Assembly (NCBI GenBank): GCA_951813395.1
Contig: OX638356.1
Location: 3,112,501-3,176,500 of the forward strand
DNA: 64,000 nucleotides
Origin: Longimicrobiales bacterium
GTDB taxonomy: Bacteria; Gemmatimonadota; Gemmatimonadetes; Longimicrobiales; Gaopeijiaceae
Direction: 5' to 3'
Shown one piece after another: positions 47,291 through 54,675 of this stretch; positions within the stretch are counted from its first letter, which is position 1; each line of letters starts with the position of its first letter. The notes beneath the pieces were generated by a model. The model searched no databases. It was not told the origin of the DNA and worked only from the letters and a program-made list of their open reading frames with translations. A program made the translations under genes and the position numbers.

Positions 47291-47995
47291 CTACCAGTCC
47301 ATCGCGTCCGGCTCCGGTTCGTAGATTTCGAGCCCCTTGCGGGCGAGCAGGAAAGAGCCGGCCAGGACGAGGGCCGAAGCCACCAATGCCGTGGCCGTGG
47401 CAATCAGCAGCGTGTGGTCGCTGGCCATGATGGCCTGAATGGCCCGCAGCGGACTTCCGAAAAGCCGTTCGTAGAGGTAGCCCACTGTAAGGAACGCTGC
47501 AAGAACGGTTAGAAACCCATAGGTCATGACCGTCTTGGCCTTGAATCGGAGTGCAAGCCCCAGCGCGGAACTACAGCACGCGGATATGGTGATCCAAAAC
47601 ACGGGGAAGGAAACGGCGATGGTGCGGACAGTACTTGCGTCCGCGCCAATGCCGGGCCACGCCACACCAGCAGCAACGGCAAACGACAGAGCGCTGAGCG
47701 CCGAAAAGAGCGTGCCCGCCGTCAGCCGAGCCGCGGCGAGAGTCGATGCGCTCAAGGGCAGGGTGGTGAGCAATTCCAGGCCACCGGTCATCTTGTCCTT
47801 GGCCACCTCGAGGGGAACCTGCAGTGCGAGCGAAATACCCAGAATAGATAGCACGGCGCTCCATCCCGCCCGACCGAATCCCAGCACGAGCACCGCCACC
47901 GTGGCCACCGAGAACATGATTCCAACACCCATCAGGAACTGCCGCGAGCGTTGAAACTCAACACCCACCACTGCTCGAAATGCCTGCTTGGTCAT
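47291..47995 (-). CDS. ABC transporter permease of the peptide cluster
   Basis: A 234-residue membrane protein with about six segments, of ABC-2 type. The N-terminus MTKQAFRAVVGVEFQRSRQ is amphipathic and positive as in such permeases; the segments LQVPLEVAKDKMTGGLELLTTLPLSASTL form the usual coupling region. The ATG overlaps the ATPase stop by 4 bases. With the ATPase it would make a half-size ABC exporter or immunity pump for the peptides. It has no peptidase or fused ATPase domain. Confidence 0.8.
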   Translation of the reverse strand: MTKQAFRAVVGVEFQRSRQFLMGVGIMFSVATVAVLVLGFGRAGWSAVLSILGISLALQVPLEVAKDKMTGGLELLTTLPLSASTLAAARLTAGTLFSALSALSFAVAAGVAWPGIGADASTVRTIAVSFPVFWITISACCSSALGLALRFKAKTVMTYGFLTVLAAFLTVGYLYERLFGSPLRAIQAIMASDHTLLIATATALVASALVLAGSFLLARKGLEIYEPEPDAMDW

Positions 47996-48705
47996 GAACG
48001 CTCCAATGCTTGGAGGAGGATCTGGGAAAGCGGTGCACCCGGGTCGCGTTCCCGCAGCTCCGCAGTAGCGACATCTTCGAGGATTCGTCCCACCCTCATG
48101 AGGACGACCCGCTCGGCGATGAACTCCACGTCTTCCAGGATGTGGCTTGAGAAGATGACGAGCCGGTCGCCGCCACCAGGCGCACACTCGTCGATGATCC
48201 CGAGCAGCTCACGGCGCATGACCGGATCGATGGCCGACGTGGGCTCGTCCAGAATGAGGACAGGTGGCCGATGAGCCTCGGCTCCAACCAGAGACAGCTT
48301 TACCGCCATTCCCTTGGATAGTGTTCCGACCTTCGAGGCACTGGGAAGCTCCAGCCGCTCAAGGAGTTCCTCCGCGTACTCATGATCCCAGGTGGGATAG
48401 AACGCCGAAAGGAAACTCAGGTGTTCACCTACGGTCATCCACCCGAACCCGAGCAGCTTCTCGGGAAGAAACCCGATCTGCGCCCTGATCTCCGGCAACC
48501 GGGACCGGACGTCCTCTCCGCCGAGCTCCACCCCGCCCTCATAGTCCCGCAGCCGACCCGCGATCGCCTTGAGCGTCGTGCTCTTGCCGGCGCCGTTTGC
48601 TCCCACCACCGCCACGCGCTCTCCGGGATCGATCGACAGGTCCATCGGCTCCAGGAAAAAGTTCGAGTAGCGGACGCTGAATCCCCGCAACCTCACACCG
48701 ATCAT
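47992..48705 (-). CDS. ABC transporter ATPase of the peptide cluster
   Basis: A 237-residue ATPase. Walker A GANGAGKSTTLKAIAGRL, Q-loop region IGFLPEKLLGFGWMTVGEHL, signature LSKGMAVKLSLVGA, Walker B PVLILDEPTSAIDP and the H-loop HILEDVEF are all intact. The signature LSKGM is the type found in CcmA/BcrA-like antibiotic and bacteriocin self-protection ATPases. I start at ATG 48705 (MIGVRLRGFSVRYSN); an upstream ATG at 48762 would add 19 unlike residues and overlap the previous gene. Confidence 0.88.
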   Translation of the reverse strand: MIGVRLRGFSVRYSNFFLEPMDLSIDPGERVAVVGANGAGKSTTLKAIAGRLRDYEGGVELGGEDVRSRLPEIRAQIGFLPEKLLGFGWMTVGEHLSFLSAFYPTWDHEYAEELLERLELPSASKVGTLSKGMAVKLSLVGAEAHRPPVLILDEPTSAIDPVMRRELLGIIDECAPGGGDRLVIFSSHILEDVEFIAERVVLMRVGRILEDVATAELRERDPGAPLSQILLQALERS

Positions 48706-48746
48706 CTTGCAAGTCCCCACGCCGCCCCGCCCTCTCTCCGGCACCT

Positions 48747-49427
48747 CTATAATGTGACCCATGCACGCACCGCTGAAAAGGCCACCGTCACGCCCCAGAA
48801 GAAGAGCGCAAGACCGAGCGCCGGCCGGACCTCCAGGCCATCACACCGGCGCAAAGCCATCACAAGAAACGCGAACCAACAGACATGGCCGATGGAGAAG
48901 ACCTGCGCGATTGCCAGCAGGAAAGGACTGGTGGCCGGTACAAAAGCCGCCAGCCCCAGCGACACCTGCAGGTCTGCGGGCGAGTCGACGCTGCCGCCAG
49001 TGGTCAGATGCAGATAGAGAGCGAGCAGCACTCCCTGCGCAGCCAGAATCGCCTCTCCGTACAGCAGCACGGAGAGGACCGGGCGGATTCGGCGCTCCGA
49101 ATTCGTCAGTACGAGCACTGCCCAGCCCAGGATCGTCAACAGGCCTGCCTTGAACAGCTGGACCACCGGGGCGATCAGTGCGAGCGACCACACCATCAAC
49201 ATCATTCCCCGGGTTATTTCAGCCCCCTGATCTCCCATCAGACTCTGTAGCAGCGGTCGCAGGGAGAATGCTGCCGCGAGAGAGAACACCCATCCGACGA
49301 CCAGTGGCGGCACAATCGGCCGATGCACCCGAATGTCGTCCAGACTCGGAATGAGCATGTTCCCGAAGTGTCGCAACCTGGCCAGCACGCGTGGCGTCCA
49401 TCCCTCCACCTTGCCACCTCCTTTCAT
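48747..49427 (-). CDS. Yip1-like multi-spanning membrane protein
   Basis: A 226-residue protein with five to six hydrophobic segments and a soluble N-terminus (PRVLARLRHFGNMLIPSLDDIR). The layout resembles YIP1-domain proteins, often encoded next to ABC-2 exporters. Its ATG overlaps the stop of the thioredoxin-like gene by 4 bases. In this cluster it may be an immunity or transporter accessory protein; there is no direct evidence for either. Confidence 0.6.
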   Translation of the reverse strand: MKGGGKVEGWTPRVLARLRHFGNMLIPSLDDIRVHRPIVPPLVVGWVFSLAAAFSLRPLLQSLMGDQGAEITRGMMLMVWSLALIAPVVQLFKAGLLTILGWAVLVLTNSERRIRPVLSVLLYGEAILAAQGVLLALYLHLTTGGSVDSPADLQVSLGLAAFVPATSPFLLAIAQVFSIGHVCWFAFLVMALRRCDGLEVRPALGLALFFWGVTVAFSAVRAWVTL

Positions 49428-49996
49428 GACCCTCCCCCGTTTCCTCCGCGCACCACCGCGATGTAGTCCACCAGCCTGCGCCTGCCGGTTCGCCCGGCAT
49501 GCACGAGCCGCACGGTGTCCGAGCCGTCAACCCAGAACGTCGCCGGCACGGCGTTCAGTCCGAGAGCACGGGCGACGCTGCCGTCCTGGTCGTGCACCGT
49601 CCGCATACGAAGCGATGGAGGCACCCACGCGGCGCCATCCATTGCCGACTTCGGCGATGCGACCACCCACACCTGCAAGTCCCCAACTGTCGCGTTCGTC
49701 CCGTCACCGCTCCCGAGCAGAGACTCCCACAGCTCGAGTTCGGCCTTGCAATGAACACAGCTCCGGTCCACGTACACGAGGGCCGCCGAACTCCGGAAAC
49801 CGGACGCCCGCGCTTGCCCTCCACCCCACACCCGTTCGGTCACAATCCCCGGAAGCGCCCATGGCGGCTCCTCGGGCCCAGGACCAACCGGCGCCCTCCT
49901 GCCAGCCAGGACATACGGTGCCAGTCCGATTCCTACCACCATGACCGCAACGGCCGCAGCCACAACCTTCTTCACCATACCTCGTTCTACTCCCAT
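49424..49996 (-). CDS. membrane-anchored thioredoxin-like protein with CVHC
   Basis: A 190-residue protein with an N-terminal membrane anchor (VVAAAVAVMVVGIGLAPYVL) and an extracytoplasmic thioredoxin-like domain. The CxxC is Cys80-Val-His-Cys83 in VYVDRSCVHCKAELELW, and a cis-proline is seen in NAVPATFWVDG. CVHC is a redox motif of disulfide exchange proteins. Next to precursors with CxxC/CxxxC pairs, disulfide formation or isomerisation in the mature peptides is its likely task. The ATG has an excellent site, GGAGGAGG, and lies 80 bases after the last precursor gene. Confidence 0.8.
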   Translation of the reverse strand: MGVERGMVKKVVAAAVAVMVVGIGLAPYVLAGRRAPVGPGPEEPPWALPGIVTERVWGGGQARASGFRSSAALVYVDRSCVHCKAELELWESLLGSGDGTNATVGDLQVWVVASPKSAMDGAAWVPPSLRMRTVHDQDGSVARALGLNAVPATFWVDGSDTVRLVHAGRTGRRRLVDYIAVVRGGNGGGS

Positions 49997-50016
49997 CACG
50001 TTCCTCCTCCCGAACC

Positions 50017-50050
50017 GGAGCCCGGATGGACCACGATCCATCCGGGCTCC
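50017..50050 (-). promoter_or_regulatory. long perfect inverted repeat between precursor genes and thioredoxin-like gene
   Basis: A 14-bp perfect stem (GGAGCCCGGATGGA against TCCATCCGGGCTCC) with a 6-base loop lies between the fourth precursor and the thioredoxin-like gene. There is no U-run after it. It would protect the 3' end of the peptide-coding mRNA and lower read-through into the five downstream genes, giving more precursor than transporter, as is common in bacteriocin operons. The effect is inferred. Confidence 0.65.
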
Positions 50051-50076
50051 CCTCCCTACGAAGCCGAATTGTCCGT

Positions 50077-50370
50077 TCAGCCGAACGCCACGTGGCAGAT
50101 GTAGGCGCATGGCACAAGCGTGCCGAGCGGCGCGTTGCCAAATGCGATCATCAGTATGCAGCCCGCGCATGCCCCAGTCACAGCTGCCCAGAAGATCATG
50201 AGCGACTGTCCTCCGACTACATCCGGTGTCGCAGAAGCCTCCACCGTAGTTGGGGCCAGGACTCCGCCCACGTCACCGCGCAACCCTGTTTCACTTGCAG
50301 AGATTATCGTTGTACTAAGGGTCAGCGCACCTGCCAACATCACAACTGTCCTTCTCGCTACAGATCTCAT
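50077..50370 (-). CDS. small CxxC/CxxxC peptide precursor (fourth)
   Basis: A 97-residue precursor. An N-terminal signal-like segment (RRTVVMLAGALTLSTTII) is followed by a polar spacer and DVVGG at residues 50-54. The predicted mature part is 43 residues, hydrophobic, with CAGC (Cys68-Cys71) and CAYIC (Cys88-Cys92), 16 residues apart. It shares with its three upstream neighbours the order signal, spacer, VVG(G/A), GC-x2-C, C-x3-C. No known family recognised. A GGGAGG site lies 6 bases before ATG. Confidence 0.75.
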   Translation of the reverse strand: MRSVARRTVVMLAGALTLSTTIISASETGLRGDVGGVLAPTTVEASATPDVVGGQSLMIFWAAVTGACAGCILMIAFGNAPLGTLVPCAYICHVAFG

Positions 50371-50409
50371 CCTTGCCTCCCTCTTCGACGTTCTTCACTT
50401 GGCTCCACT

Positions 50410-50736
50410 TCAAAACACATCCACGCACGCTACAGTACACCCCAAGCCGACAGCGAAGCCCATCGGTGGTATCAGGGCAAGGAGGAAGACACTGATGCCG
50501 AAGCAGGTCCAACAGCCAGAATCAAGCTCCAACTGACCCCCAACCACGGCATTCACGTTCATGGCAACCTCCCGGTCGTGGCCATTCACAACACCATCGC
50601 TTTCTAGCGCCCGCACAACGTCAAGAGACGCCAGTTCGATCTGGCCGGTACCGTTCACCGGAACCGATGCCAGAGTCGTTTGCATGAGCGACAGGACAAG
50701 CATGCCACTCGTTATCATTCTTGTTGTCGATTTCAT
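50410..50736 (-). CDS. small CxxC/CxxxC peptide precursor (third)
   Basis: A 108-residue precursor. N-terminal signal-like segment (MITSGMLVLSLMQTTLA), a long acidic spacer, AVVGG at residues 63-67, then a 41-residue hydrophobic core with CWTC (Cys75-Cys78) and CTVAC (Cys100-Cys104), 21 residues apart, and a Pro-Pro break at the middle. I start at 50736 because of AGGAGAAAAAG just upstream; a longer reading to 50832 overlaps the previous gene. Codon use and base content are more AT-rich than in most of the window. Confidence 0.75.
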   Translation of the reverse strand: MKSTTRMITSGMLVLSLMQTTLASVPVNGTGQIELASLDVVRALESDGVVNGHDREVAMNVNAVVGGQLELDSGCWTCFGISVFLLALIPPMGFAVGLGCTVACVDVF

Positions 50737-50791
50737 CTTTTTCTCCTGTTGATTCCTGTTTGTTCGTTCACCGGCGATGATCCCTGTCCGC

Positions 50792-51112
50792 TCATGCGTA
50801 CCCGATATAGCAGAGACCGGCACATGCGGCATACACCGGCCAAAGCCATCCGAAACTCACAATGAGTCCAACCACTGATCCGGCACCCAATCCCAGCGCG
50901 GTGCCAACACAAACGTTGCAACCTCCCTTTACGATGATCGTGCCAATGCCGCCCTGCATTCCTACTACATTGTCCTCCTGTTGTGCTTCCATGGCGCCGT
51001 CCGCCCGCAATGTTGGCACGCGCCCTGGATTTGAAACAGTGGGATACGCTAACGCGGCGATGACTGCGAATAGAGTCACATGCCTCAACACTTTCTTGCC
51101 CCTCACAAGCAT
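50792..51112 (-). CDS. small CxxC/CxxxC peptide precursor (second)
   Basis: A 106-residue precursor. N-terminal signal-like segment (VTLFAVIAALAYPTVS), a spacer, NVVGMQGG at residues 48-55, then about 51 residues with CNVC (Cys65-Cys68) and CAGLC (Cys97-Cys101), 28 residues apart. Between the cysteine pairs are two Gly-rich hydrophobic stretches that could form a helical hairpin. A GAGGAAAGGAGA site touches the ATG. Together with the first precursor it is the most Gly-rich of the four. Confidence 0.75.
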   Translation of the reverse strand: MLVRGKKVLRHVTLFAVIAALAYPTVSNPGRVPTLRADGAMEAQQEDNVVGMQGGIGTIIVKGGCNVCVGTALGLGAGSVVGLIVSFGWLWPVYAACAGLCYIGYA

Positions 51113-51133
51113 TCTCCTTTCCTCAAAAGGCTC

Positions 51134-51427
51134 CTACATGACCGAGTGATAGCAGAATCCAGCGCAAGCCCCCAATGCGAGGGTGGATCCGGCTTTGCCA
51201 GCTGCGGCTACGACGGCAACCCACCCACCGGTGTACGCCAGACCTACTCCGACGGCGATGCACCCGACGCAACCGAGGAAAGACTTCCAACCGGCGCCAA
51301 CAACCGCCGTCGTCTCCACGGGCTGCGGCGACCTGTCAGCGATTGTGCCGCCGACTGTCGCGGCCTGGGTGCCCAGCAGTGCCAGACACAGTGTCAGCAC
51401 GATGGGCCGAAAACTCCTCTTCTTCAT
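51134..51427 (-). CDS. small CxxC/CxxxC peptide precursor (first)
   Basis: A 97-residue precursor, the first after the C39 peptidase gene. N-terminal signal-like segment (PIVLTLCLALLGTQAAT), spacer, AVVGA at residues 41-45 (GA in place of GG), then 52 residues with CVGC (Cys53-Cys56) and CAGFC (Cys88-Cys92), 31 residues apart. The core GVGLAYTGGWVAVVAAAG is a Gly-rich helix candidate. The site GGAGGAGAAGG lies right before ATG. Order and motifs identify it as a paralogue of the next three genes. Confidence 0.75.
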   Translation of the reverse strand: MKKRSFRPIVLTLCLALLGTQAATVGGTIADRSPQPVETTAVVGAGWKSFLGCVGCIAVGVGLAYTGGWVAVVAAAGKAGSTLALGACAGFCYHSVM

Positions 51428-51492: not shown

Positions 51493-52092
51493 CTACCCGG
51501 CGAGCAGGATCGACTCGCCGGACCAGATCTTCTCGAATCCTTCCTCGCTGATCGAATAGCGGCCCACCGAAGGGTCCACGACGGTGAGACGTCCGGATGG
51601 CGACCTTCCGGTGACCGTCACGAAGTGGTTGCGGTTCACCCAGGCGATGAACGGGAGACGCGTGTGCGGCAGTTCGGCCGACGTGAGCCGTGTTAGCATG
51701 AGCGACAGGTTGAATCGGCTCGCGGCACGGATCAGCCCACCCGCAGTCGTCCCTCGCGGCTCAGTCCCCGCCAGCACCATGAGCGAGTCGGTCGATGGCG
51801 CAGCAACGCCGACAATGCGCATCATGTTGGCCAGCGCGGCAGGGCCGCAGTCATTCAGCGCGGCCTGGAAGACTACGCCGTCACTTCCCAGGAACTCCGC
51901 ATCCGACCGGGCCAGTTCGGCACGGGCGACAAGTCGCCCCAGACGGGGCAGATCGCTGGCCGCCAGGGTCCCGAGCGCGAGCGCGCCTGACACAAGGACG
52001 AGCACAAGGACGGCGGAGCGGCGAAGGTTGCGCGCGCGCTTCCCCGATCCATGTTCTCGCGGGCCGGAGACTTCGGACTGGTACCTTGGCAT
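51493..52092 (-). CDS. membrane-anchored C39 family peptidase
   Basis: A 199-residue protein with a basic N-terminus, one membrane helix (AVLVLVLVSGALALGTLAA, residues 27-45) and a C39 cysteine peptidase domain outside the membrane. The catalytic residues are Gln76, Cys82 (NDCGPAALANM), His156 (NRNHFVTV) and Asp173 (VVDPSVG). C39 domains remove double-glycine leaders of bacteriocins; they are usually fused to an ABC transporter on the cytosolic side, but here the domain stands alone and probably faces the periplasm. GCGAGG precedes ATG 52092. It heads the nine-gene cluster. Confidence 0.88.
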   Translation of the reverse strand: MPRYQSEVSGPREHGSGKRARNLRRSAVLVLVLVSGALALGTLAASDLPRLGRLVARAELARSDAEFLGSDGVVFQAALNDCGPAALANMMRIVGVAAPSTDSLMVLAGTEPRGTTAGGLIRAASRFNLSLMLTRLTSAELPHTRLPFIAWVNRNHFVTVTGRSPSGRLTVVDPSVGRYSISEEGFEKIWSGESILLAG

Positions 52093-52281
52093 CGGGATGC
52101 CTCGCGGGTCGATGGGTCGTGATACGATCAAGCGAGACCCACGCTACCCGCCCCGGATGTGCGTTTACATGTCTGGATGGGACAATCGTCCCGAGAGCGT
52201 GCATCGCCCCCTTCAGGCACCACGATTCGAGCGCACGTCGACCCCCGAACGCCCCCAACCAGCGGAGCGACCCACCCCAAC

Positions 52282-52316: not shown

Positions 52317-52943
52317 CTACAGCGACTTCAGGACCTCCAGGATGTCCTCGTTGGTGGGCCGCACCCGGTAGTCCACCTCCACGAAGCGGTACCGCACGAC
52401 GCCTTCCTTGTCGATCACGTAGGTGGCGGGGTGCGGCAGAGGCCGGTTGGGAGGCGCGTTCTCGTTGAACAGGCCGTAGCGGTCGATTACGGCGTGGTCC
52501 GGGTCGGAGAGCATGATGAAATCGGGGGCCATGCCGTCCTCCGCGGCGACACGGTCGATCATCAACTGCATCCCCTCCCGGTCGTCCACCGACACCGTCA
52601 CGATTTCCGTCTCGTCATTGAGATCGTCGGGCAAAAGGGCTCTCAGCTCCACGAGCTGACCGGCGCAGTAGGGTCACCAGTGGCCCCGGTAGAAGACGAG
52701 CACCACGTTCTTGTCCCCGCGGAAGCCCGAAAGCGCCACCGTGCCGCGGTCGAAGGACTCCAGGGCGAACAGCGGCGCTTCGCCCCCGACCGCCACGCGC
52801 TCGATGTCGGTGCCCGGCAGGTCGTGACCGTCGGCCGGACCCAGCTCCTGTGCGCGAGTCGAGTTTGCGGTCGCTGCCAGGGCGAGCAGCACCGGCAACG
52901 CGATGGATCGCCTGCCGGCCGGGAATCGAATGATCGGGAACAT
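52317..52943 (-). CDS. selenocysteine-containing AhpC/TSA thioredoxin-fold protein (UPYC)
   Basis: A 208-residue exported thioredoxin-fold protein if TGA at 52674-52676 is read as selenocysteine. The signal segment is SIALPVLLALAATANSTRAQ. The fold follows with APLFALESFDRGTVALSGFRGDKNVVLVFYRGHW, then residue 90 is the TGA, then PYCAGQLVELRALLP: the family active site WCPYC has its first cysteine replaced by UGA, giving U-P-Y-C. Translation of the same frame beyond TGA is fully homologous (VTVSVDDREGMQLMIDR, HPATYVIDKEGVVRYRFV). A SECIS-like hairpin follows. The rival view is a nonsense mutation; start at 52943 or 53003. Confidence 0.78.
52643..52659 (-). promoter_or_regulatory. SECIS-like hairpin of the UPYC gene
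   Basis: On the minus strand TCAGCTC-GTG-GAGCTGA forms a 7-bp perfect stem with a GUG loop. It begins 14 bases after the UGA, so the loop starts 22 bases downstream, with G first. Bacterial SECIS elements have an apical loop about 16-37 bases after UGA with a G in the first two loop positions, so this fits. Confidence 0.65.
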
Positions 52944-53016: not shown

Positions 53017-54675
53017 ATGTGCTCAGTCCTCGCCATCCTCGGGTTCGACCCCGCGGATCCACCACCCCGTGATCAGGTCCTGACCCTGTCGAAGCTGCAG
53101 CGACACCGCGGCCCCGACTGGTCCGGCGTCTTCACGCACGAACGGGCGGTCCTGGCCCACAACCGCCTCGCCATCGTGGATGTGGAGCACGGCGCCCAGC
53201 CCCTCCAGAACGCAGCGGGCACACATGTACTGGCCGTCAACGGCGAGATCTACAACCACCGCAAGCTCGAATCCGAGCTCGGGAGGCCGTATCGCTTCCT
53301 AACCCGGAGCGACTGCGAGGTCATTCTCGCGCTGTACGCCGAGCAGGGAAGCGACTTCCTGGATCGCCTGAACGGGATCTTCGCTTTCGTGCTGTACGAC
53401 CTGGAGAAGGACAGGTACCTCGTGGGACGCGACCACCTCGGCATCGTCCCGCTGTATACCGGATACGACGACGACGGCCGGTTCTACGTCGCGTCGGAGA
53501 TGAAGGCCCTTGCGCCGGTCTGCCGCACGGTCTCCGAATTCCCGCCGGGACACCTTCTCGATTCCTCGGAGGGCACTCCGCGACCGTACTACACGCGCGC
53601 CTGGCGGGCCTTCGGCGCGGCGACGGAGGATCCCGACCCGTCACGCATCCGCGAGGCGCTCGAGGCGGCCGTGCATCGGCAGCTCATGTCCGACGTGCCG
53701 TACGGCGTGCTCCTGTCGGGAGGACTGGACTCCTCCATCGTGTCCGCGGTGGCGCGGCGCTTTTCGCGAAACCGGATCGAGGACGACGACCGGACCGAGG
53801 CCTGGTGGCCCCGGCTCCACTCGTTCTGCATAGGGTTGGAGGGATCCCCCGACCTGGCTGCGGCAAGGGTCGTGGCCGATCATATCGGGACCGTGCACCA
53901 CGAGTTCCACTTCACCGTGCAGGACGGACTGGACGCGCTGTCCGACGTCATCCATCACCTGGAGACGTACGATGTGACGACGGTGCGCGCCGCCACGCCG
54001 ATGTACCTGATGGCCCGGCGCATTCGGACCCTGGGGATCAAGATGGTGCTGTCCGGCGAGGGGGCCGACGAGGTGTTCGGCGGCTACCTCTACTTCCATC
54101 GCGCGCCCGACCCGCGCTCGTTCCACGAAGAGACCGTCCGCAAGATCGACCGGTTGCATCAGTACGACTGTCTGCGGGCCAACAAGGCCATGGCCGCGTG
54201 GGGAATCGAGGCCCGCGTCCCGTTCCTGGACAAGGAATTCCTGGATGTGGCCATGTCGATCGATCCAGCCGGGAAGATGCCCGCCGGCGGAATCGAGAAG
54301 CGCATCCTGCGGGAGGCTTTCAGCGACTACCTGCCGGCCGAGGTGCTATGGCGCCAGAAGGAGCAGTTCTCGGACGGCGTGGGGTATTCCTGGATCGACT
54401 CGCTGAAGGATTTCGCGGACCGCAGCGTCAGCGACCGCAAGATGGCCAGCGCCCCCTTCCGCTTCCCCCACAACCCGCCCGCCGACAAGGAAGCCTACCT
54501 TTACCGGCGGATCTTCGAGTCGCATTTCCCGCTGCCGACCGCCGCCCATTGCGTCCCCGGCGGACCGAGCGTGGCGTGCTCCACACCCGAGGCGCTGGCC
54601 TGGGACGAGGTGTTGTCGAAGACGCTCGACCCCTCGGGGCGGGCGGTCGCGGGCGTGCACGAGGCCGCCTACTGA
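53017..54675 (+). CDS. asnB: asparagine synthase (glutamine-hydrolysing), AsnB
   Basis: A 552-residue enzyme making asparagine from aspartate, ATP and glutamine. The N-terminal nucleophile Cys2 is in MCSVLAI; the glutaminase part shows HRGPDWSGV, RLAIVDVEHGAQPL and NGEIYNH. The synthetase domain has the PP-loop YGVLLSGGLDSSIVSA (about residue 233), SFCIGLEGSPDLAAA, and VLSGEGADEVFGGYLYF. Length and sequence follow E. coli AsnB closely. The ATG at 53017 exposes Cys2 after Met removal, which fixes the start. It is divergent from the UPYC gene. Confidence 0.97.
   Translation: MCSVLAILGFDPADPPPRDQVLTLSKLQRHRGPDWSGVFTHERAVLAHNRLAIVDVEHGAQPLQNAAGTHVLAVNGEIYNHRKLESELGRPYRFLTRSDCEVILALYAEQGSDFLDRLNGIFAFVLYDLEKDRYLVGRDHLGIVPLYTGYDDDGRFYVASEMKALAPVCRTVSEFPPGHLLDSSEGTPRPYYTRAWRAFGAATEDPDPSRIREALEAAVHRQLMSDVPYGVLLSGGLDSSIVSAVARRFSRNRIEDDDRTEAWWPRLHSFCIGLEGSPDLAAARVVADHIGTVHHEFHFTVQDGLDALSDVIHHLETYDVTTVRAATPMYLMARRIRTLGIKMVLSGEGADEVFGGYLYFHRAPDPRSFHEETVRKIDRLHQYDCLRANKAMAAWGIEARVPFLDKEFLDVAMSIDPAGKMPAGGIEKRILREAFSDYLPAEVLWRQKEQFSDGVGYSWIDSLKDFADRSVSDRKMASAPFRFPHNPPADKEAYLYRRIFESHFPLPTAAHCVPGGPSVACSTPEALAWDEVLSKTLDPSGRAVAGVHEAAY

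Follow-up and report, generated by a model that had tools for sequence, protein, structure and literature searches.

A Predicted Exported Selenoprotein with a UPYC Motif and a Peroxiredoxin Fold in a Member of the Longimicrobiales

The window analyzed here, a 64,000-nucleotide stretch of DNA from a Longimicrobiales bacterium of the phylum Gemmatimonadota, carries a gene that, in all likelihood, encodes an exported selenoprotein in which an in-frame UGA codon is read as selenocysteine (Sec), a rare selenium-containing amino acid. As a whole, this prediction from sequence comparisons provides the best explanation for the properties of the gene, and its support is as strong as comparative genomics allows. 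An initial annotation had already proposed a probable exported selenoprotein with a UPYC motif; the selenocysteine genes of the host, the conservation of the UGA codon and of a hairpin that follows it, and the exchange of Sec and Cys among relatives all speak in favor of that proposal.

The Gene and Its Reading Frame

The minus-strand frame opens with an ATG at position 52943, ends with a TAG at 52317, and contains a single in-frame UGA as its codon 90, embedded in the motif FYRGHW-U-PYC (Table 1). When UGA is translated as Sec, a protein of 208 residues results (MFPIIRF...FYRGHW-U-PYCAGQL...EVLKSL). Matches to the Pfam families AhpC-TSA (92.1 bits) and Redoxin (68.5 bits) both extend over either side of the UGA codon. 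Hence, the frame, the position of the TGA and the homology on both of its sides had been described correctly, with exact coordinates, in the initial annotation. The N-terminus consists of a hydrophobic stretch followed by TRA-Q and was recognized by inspection as a probable signal peptide; a comparable hydrophobic N-terminus is present in most orthologues, near relatives share the AxA-Q site, and several distant orthologues possess a lipobox-like Cys in its place.

Table 1. Features of the predicted selenoprotein gene and its surroundings; coordinates are positions in the window.
Feature	Coordinates	Strand	Evidence
Predicted selenoprotein coding sequence, 208 amino acids, Sec at residue 90, TAG end	52317..52943	-	Reading frame and orthologues
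Predicted signal peptide, residues 1-31, cleavage after TRA before Q	52851..52943	-	Hydrophobic stretch and AxA-Q, by inspection
AhpC/TSA (PF00578) domain, residues 52-185	52389..52790	-	Pfam 92.1 bits, cut-off 26; peroxiredoxin fold in model
UGA codon predicted to be read as Sec90, first position of UPYC	52674..52676	-	Orthologues: UGA in 60 distinct sequences, TGC in three
Cys93, partner of Sec90 in UxxC, aligned with the peroxidatic Cys of AhpE	52665..52667	-	Alignment
bSECIS-like hairpin, 7 bp stem (U CAGCUC / GAGCUG A), loop GUG at 52650-52652	52643..52659	-	Fold, frozen codons, pair counts, codon-shuffle minimum
asnB (asparagine synthase B), divergent neighbor	53017..54675	+	Synteny kept within the genus

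Conservation of the UGA Codon and Its Exchange for Cysteine Codons

Orthologues were searched for in 298 genomes of the phylum, and loci from a species-genome collection were added. An orthologue with exactly one UGA was found in 68 of the 298 genomes, the one containing the window included, and a stop-free orthologue in three. In all 75 UGA-form loci examined at the DNA level, among which 60 sequences (that of the window included) are distinct in the compared region, the UGA occupies this very codon. The UGA-form relatives are about 44-89% identical to the query, and one of them (L076) comes from a Myxococcota/Deltaproteobacteria bin. The three stop-free orthologues (L095, L096 and L097), which belong to one genus, have TGC at the UGA site; distant homologues from other phyla (e.g., Calothrix, Paenibacillus, Chitinophagaceae) have TGC or TGT, and in classical peroxiredoxin relatives the site is occupied by Thr or Ser. 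The TGA thus stands at the first Cys of a WCPYC motif, as had been proposed at the outset. A paralogue (L132, at G239:C308) carries the motif UPFS, in which Ser takes the place of the second Cys and Sec persists.

The type of residue goes along with the genetic equipment of the producer. A gene for tRNA-Sec was detected in 64 of the 68 UGA-form genomes (the lists were matched by eye), and the other four possess a SelB protein scoring over the cut-off. The latter genomes (G097, G279, G122 and G209) were considered as counter-examples and were dismissed as such on account of their SelB proteins; assembly gaps are the likelier reason for their missing tRNA-Sec matches. The three Cys-form genomes yielded neither a tRNA-Sec match nor a SelB protein over the cut-off. 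Fisher's test on the presence of tRNA-Sec versus the residue gives p = 0.0006, a value that overstates the independence of the data since the Cys forms make up a single clade. In the phylogenetic tree, this clade lies among the Sec forms, and the Sec/Cys exchange therefore counts as one evolutionary event and not as several. We infer that Sec was probably the ancestral state in the clade and gave way to Cys a single time, in a genus from which the Sec machinery had been lost; this is a reconstruction from the tree, as several of its forks are open and L076 sits on a long branch. An alignment of homologues for Cys/Sec exchange had been recommended as a check, and Cys is indeed seen in relatives devoid of the machinery. 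Taken together, the UGA aligns with a Cys of the homologues, homology flanks it on both sides, and Cys forms occur, within one clade, where the machinery is absent.

The Selenocysteine Machinery of the Host Genome

The genome from which the window derives is a single contig of 4.09 Mb. It contains a tRNA-Sec gene (79.7 bits; anticodon TCA according to ARAGORN), a SelB protein encoded by an open reading frame of 651 residues, SelA, and SelD, with the three proteins all scoring over their cut-offs. The search for selA, selB, selC and selD suggested in the initial annotation hence recovered all four genes, and since they are all present, the genome is equipped to read UGA as Sec.

The selD gene (L018, G000:C1:73954-74880) has an in-frame UGA of its own in the active-site motif HGAG-U-ACKLG, and SelD is thus itself a predicted selenoprotein. 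A second gene for a redoxin with a UPYC motif (FRGRW-U-PYC) is found in the same genome at G000:C1:646409-646717 on the minus strand (L052, about 1290-1800). Its UGA is common to relatives in other genomes and is followed by a hairpin (GAGCA-GGC-UGCUC) whose geometry is similar to that of the window gene. With the window gene, its UPYC paralogue and selD, the genome would therefore possess at least three predicted selenoprotein genes. Across the phylum, tRNA-Sec scored over the family cut-off in 215 of the 298 sampled genomes; the use of Sec is the rule there.

The Hairpin Downstream of the UGA Codon

Folding of the RNA behind the UGA yields a hairpin with a 7 bp stem (U-CAGCUC / GAGCUG-A) and a 3 nt loop (GUG). 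The initial annotation had placed a hairpin with a G-initial loop 22 bases after the UGA; it is the G of the loop that is the 22nd base, equivalent to a spacing of 21 nt, while the stem itself starts 15 bases after the UGA when counted from its closing U-A pair, or 16 bases after it when counted from the first C-G pair. The published bSECIS model calls for an apical loop of 3-9 nt that has a G in its first position, its second, or both, for an upper stem of 4-16 bp, and for a distance of 16-37 nt from the UGA to the apical loop (PMC13188914). Loop, stem and spacing of the hairpin (3 nt, 7 bp and 21 nt) all lie within these limits, and its first loop base is a G in 35 of 35 distinct regions.

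Comparisons among the orthologues suggest that this structure is maintained at the RNA level. The codons that form the hairpin are nearly frozen (Gln96 as CAG in 60/60, Leu97 as CTC in 58/60, Glu99 as GAG in 55/55, and Leu100 as CTG in 60/60 sequences), and this freezing of synonymous sites is confined to them; at the remaining well-conserved Leu positions of the gene, at least four Leu codons occur side by side. The closing pair covaries (U-A in 22, G-C in 7, A-U in 1 and unpaired in 5 of 35 regions) with a score above that of every one of 500 shuffles. As five of the seven pairs of the stem are without variation, direct covariation concerns one pair, and the counts can be inflated by related sequences. 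When the codons were shuffled in a manner that preserves the protein, the strongest folding relative to the shuffles was found at the windows covering the hairpin, with a summed z of about -5.6 at +6 as the minimum among the windows tested along the gene. The energy of the single-sequence hairpin gave no signal against dinucleotide shuffles (z = 0.0); with this average energy, the claim for the hairpin rests on the comparative evidence. In the Cys forms, 4, 5 and 4 of the six core pairs are left. The frozen codons, the covarying closing pair and the codon-shuffle minimum thus support an RNA hairpin under selection, and the bSECIS search that had been advised has led to a conserved, bSECIS-like element.

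In the orthologues, windows of 30 bases that start 24-36 nt 3' of the UGA fold more weakly than their codon shuffles (summed z about +4). Perhaps the weak folding just 3' of the hairpin keeps the SECIS free of competing structures.

Other Readings of the UGA Codon

A single base separates TGC or TGT from TGA, and without recoding the gene would give rise only to a truncated product of 89 residues; the locus might hence be viewed as a pseudogene, or its UGA as a sequencing error in a gene for a Cys-containing protein. We consider this exceedingly improbable and have rejected it because the UGA is conserved throughout the phylum: 60 distinct sequences of orthologues, taken from independent assemblies, share it and have no other in-frame stop codon, and the protein is conserved on both sides of it. 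The earlier judgment that random decay is an unlikely cause is borne out by this count, which excludes chance and sequencing error. Translation of the UGA as another amino acid, by read-through or by reassignment (e.g., to Trp), would dispense with selenium altogether, and an open frame on its own is silent on the residue that is inserted. Such a reading is very unlikely, because the aligned residue is Cys and not Trp, in the three stop-free orthologues as well as in the distant homologues, and the genome contains the complete Sec machinery; these observations led to its rejection, and the constrained SECIS-like hairpin after the UGA also argues against it.

Fold and Active Site

An AlphaFold model of the protein (mean pLDDT 84) displays a peroxiredoxin fold, and its nearest structures are Sulfolobus Bcp4 and mycobacterial AhpE (Z 20-21). 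In the alignment with AhpE, Cys93 corresponds to the peroxidatic Cys, Sec90 to the catalytic Thr, and Pro172, which is invariant in 26 aligned members, to Arg116. The UxxC motif and a Pro residue in front of a Thr-x-Val-Ile-Asp strand represent an arrangement that we take to be like that of thioredoxin-like oxidoreductases.

The peroxiredoxin fold and the position of Cys93 could be taken to mean that the selenoprotein functions in the manner of classical peroxiredoxins, Cys93 being the peroxidatic residue and Sec90 having an accessory or resolving role. We regard this as rather unlikely, since the Thr/Cys/Arg triad of classical peroxiredoxins is broken, with Sec90 in the place of Thr and the invariant Pro172 in that of Arg; furthermore, the paralogue L132 retains U and has Ser for the second Cys, which gives the impression that, of the two residues, U is the less dispensable one. 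With Sec substituting for the catalytic Thr and Pro for the catalytic Arg, the protein is more likely to be a thioredoxin-like UxxC oxidoreductase than a classical peroxidase. The designation of the UGA site as that of an 'active-site cysteine' is accordingly apt with respect to the UxxC motif and needs correction with respect to peroxiredoxins, where Sec90 takes the Thr position and Cys93 the peroxidatic one. Likewise, the assignment to AhpC/TSA holds for the fold, but does not imply a peroxidase, as the catalytic Arg is absent.

For the predicted selenoprotein, established Sec biology suggests that SelA and SelD would make Sec-tRNA, which SelB would deliver to the ribosome upon presentation of the hairpin that closely follows the UGA, and the UGA would then be read as Sec. 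In the mature protein, a peroxiredoxin fold would harbor an active site of the thioredoxin-like type, formed by Sec90-Pro-Tyr-Cys93 and the invariant Pro172. Most likely, the selenolate of Sec90 would attack a peroxide or a disulfide outside the cytoplasm, Cys93 would resolve the intermediate to a selenenylsulfide, and a periplasmic thiol donor would reduce the latter.

Relationship to Known Selenoproteins and Redoxins

Prx-like thiol:disulfide oxidoreductases of the PF00578 family with UxxC or UxxU motifs appear among the selenoproteins predicted with high confidence in a 2026 review (PMC13188914), the UxxC type being a prediction of long standing, and 'Prx-like 1' (pfam00578, UxxC) was found in the GOS survey (PMC2398784). 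The window protein scores above the gathering threshold of PF00578 with Sec in a UxxC motif (UPYC), and it is a member of these already known UxxC Prx-like selenoproteins. It shares with them the Pfam domain and the N-terminal position of Sec in the motif; however, the clade to which it belongs is exported and is found almost wholly in Gemmatimonadota, and the kinship lies at the level of domain and motif. A peroxiredoxin-like family protein (cd02970) is a UxxS selenoprotein (PMC13188914) and resembles the window protein as an AhpC/TSA-type redoxin with Sec at the first Cys of CxxC, but the window protein has UxxC, with the UxxS form seen in the paralogue L132 only. AhpE from Mycobacterium tuberculosis, a 1-Cys peroxiredoxin, is, in terms of sequence, the closest relative with a solved structure (E 7e-15) and is among the best matches by fold; it differs in having Thr and Arg116 where the exported window protein has Sec90 and Pro172. 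The selenoprotein L-related redoxin family NF040769 (SelL-related redox protein) weakly matches 25 of 26 aligned members, whereas the score of the window protein (35.9 bits) stays below the cut-off of 120, and none of the NCBIfam models scored over its cut-off with this protein. The commonest weak matches across the aligned members are ResA, PRK09437 and SelL-related proteins. A search of titles and abstracts, which covers the literature in part, retrieved no report on selenoproteins of Gemmatimonadota.

Genomic Neighborhood

The divergently oriented asnB gene is kept within the genus, while the downstream genes vary, and a comparison of the gene neighborhood across relatives revealed no clear partner; asnB is probably not functionally linked to the selenoprotein gene.

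On the minus strand at 50077-51427, four small open reading frames (51134-51427, 50792-51112, 50410-50832 and 50077-50370) encode exported peptides of small size; all of them have a leader, a double-glycine-like site (VVGG-Q, VVGM-Q, VVGA-G) and a hydrophobic core with the pattern CxxC...Cxx(x)C. They adjoin a stand-alone C39 peptidase (51493-52131), a thioredoxin-like exported protein with a CxxC motif (49424-50170) and an ABC transporter (47992-48762), and in a relative (L057) the order is the same, with about six peptides of this type. The whole arrangement resembles a multi-peptide bacteriocin or RiPP-type cluster.

Biological Significance

On balance, we lean towards the view that the window protein represents a hitherto unrecognized subfamily of exported, sometimes membrane-anchored, selenium-dependent oxidoreductases that is ancestral to a large part of the Gemmatimonadota and joins a peroxiredoxin fold to a thioredoxin-type UxxC/Pro site, in a phylum where most of the sampled genomes carry tRNA-Sec. 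Standard gene callers would split such a selenoprotein gene in two; because of this split and the lack of an NCBIfam name, the gene is probably mis-annotated across Gemmatimonadota genomes. The finding adds a predicted exported, selenium-dependent redox protein to a phylum with tRNA-Sec in 215/298 genomes. Moreover, the near-frozen hairpin of the Sec forms and its decay in the Cys forms provide a clean natural comparison for the constraint that acts on a SECIS element, and the same comparison informs on the replacement of Sec by Cys after the loss of the machinery.
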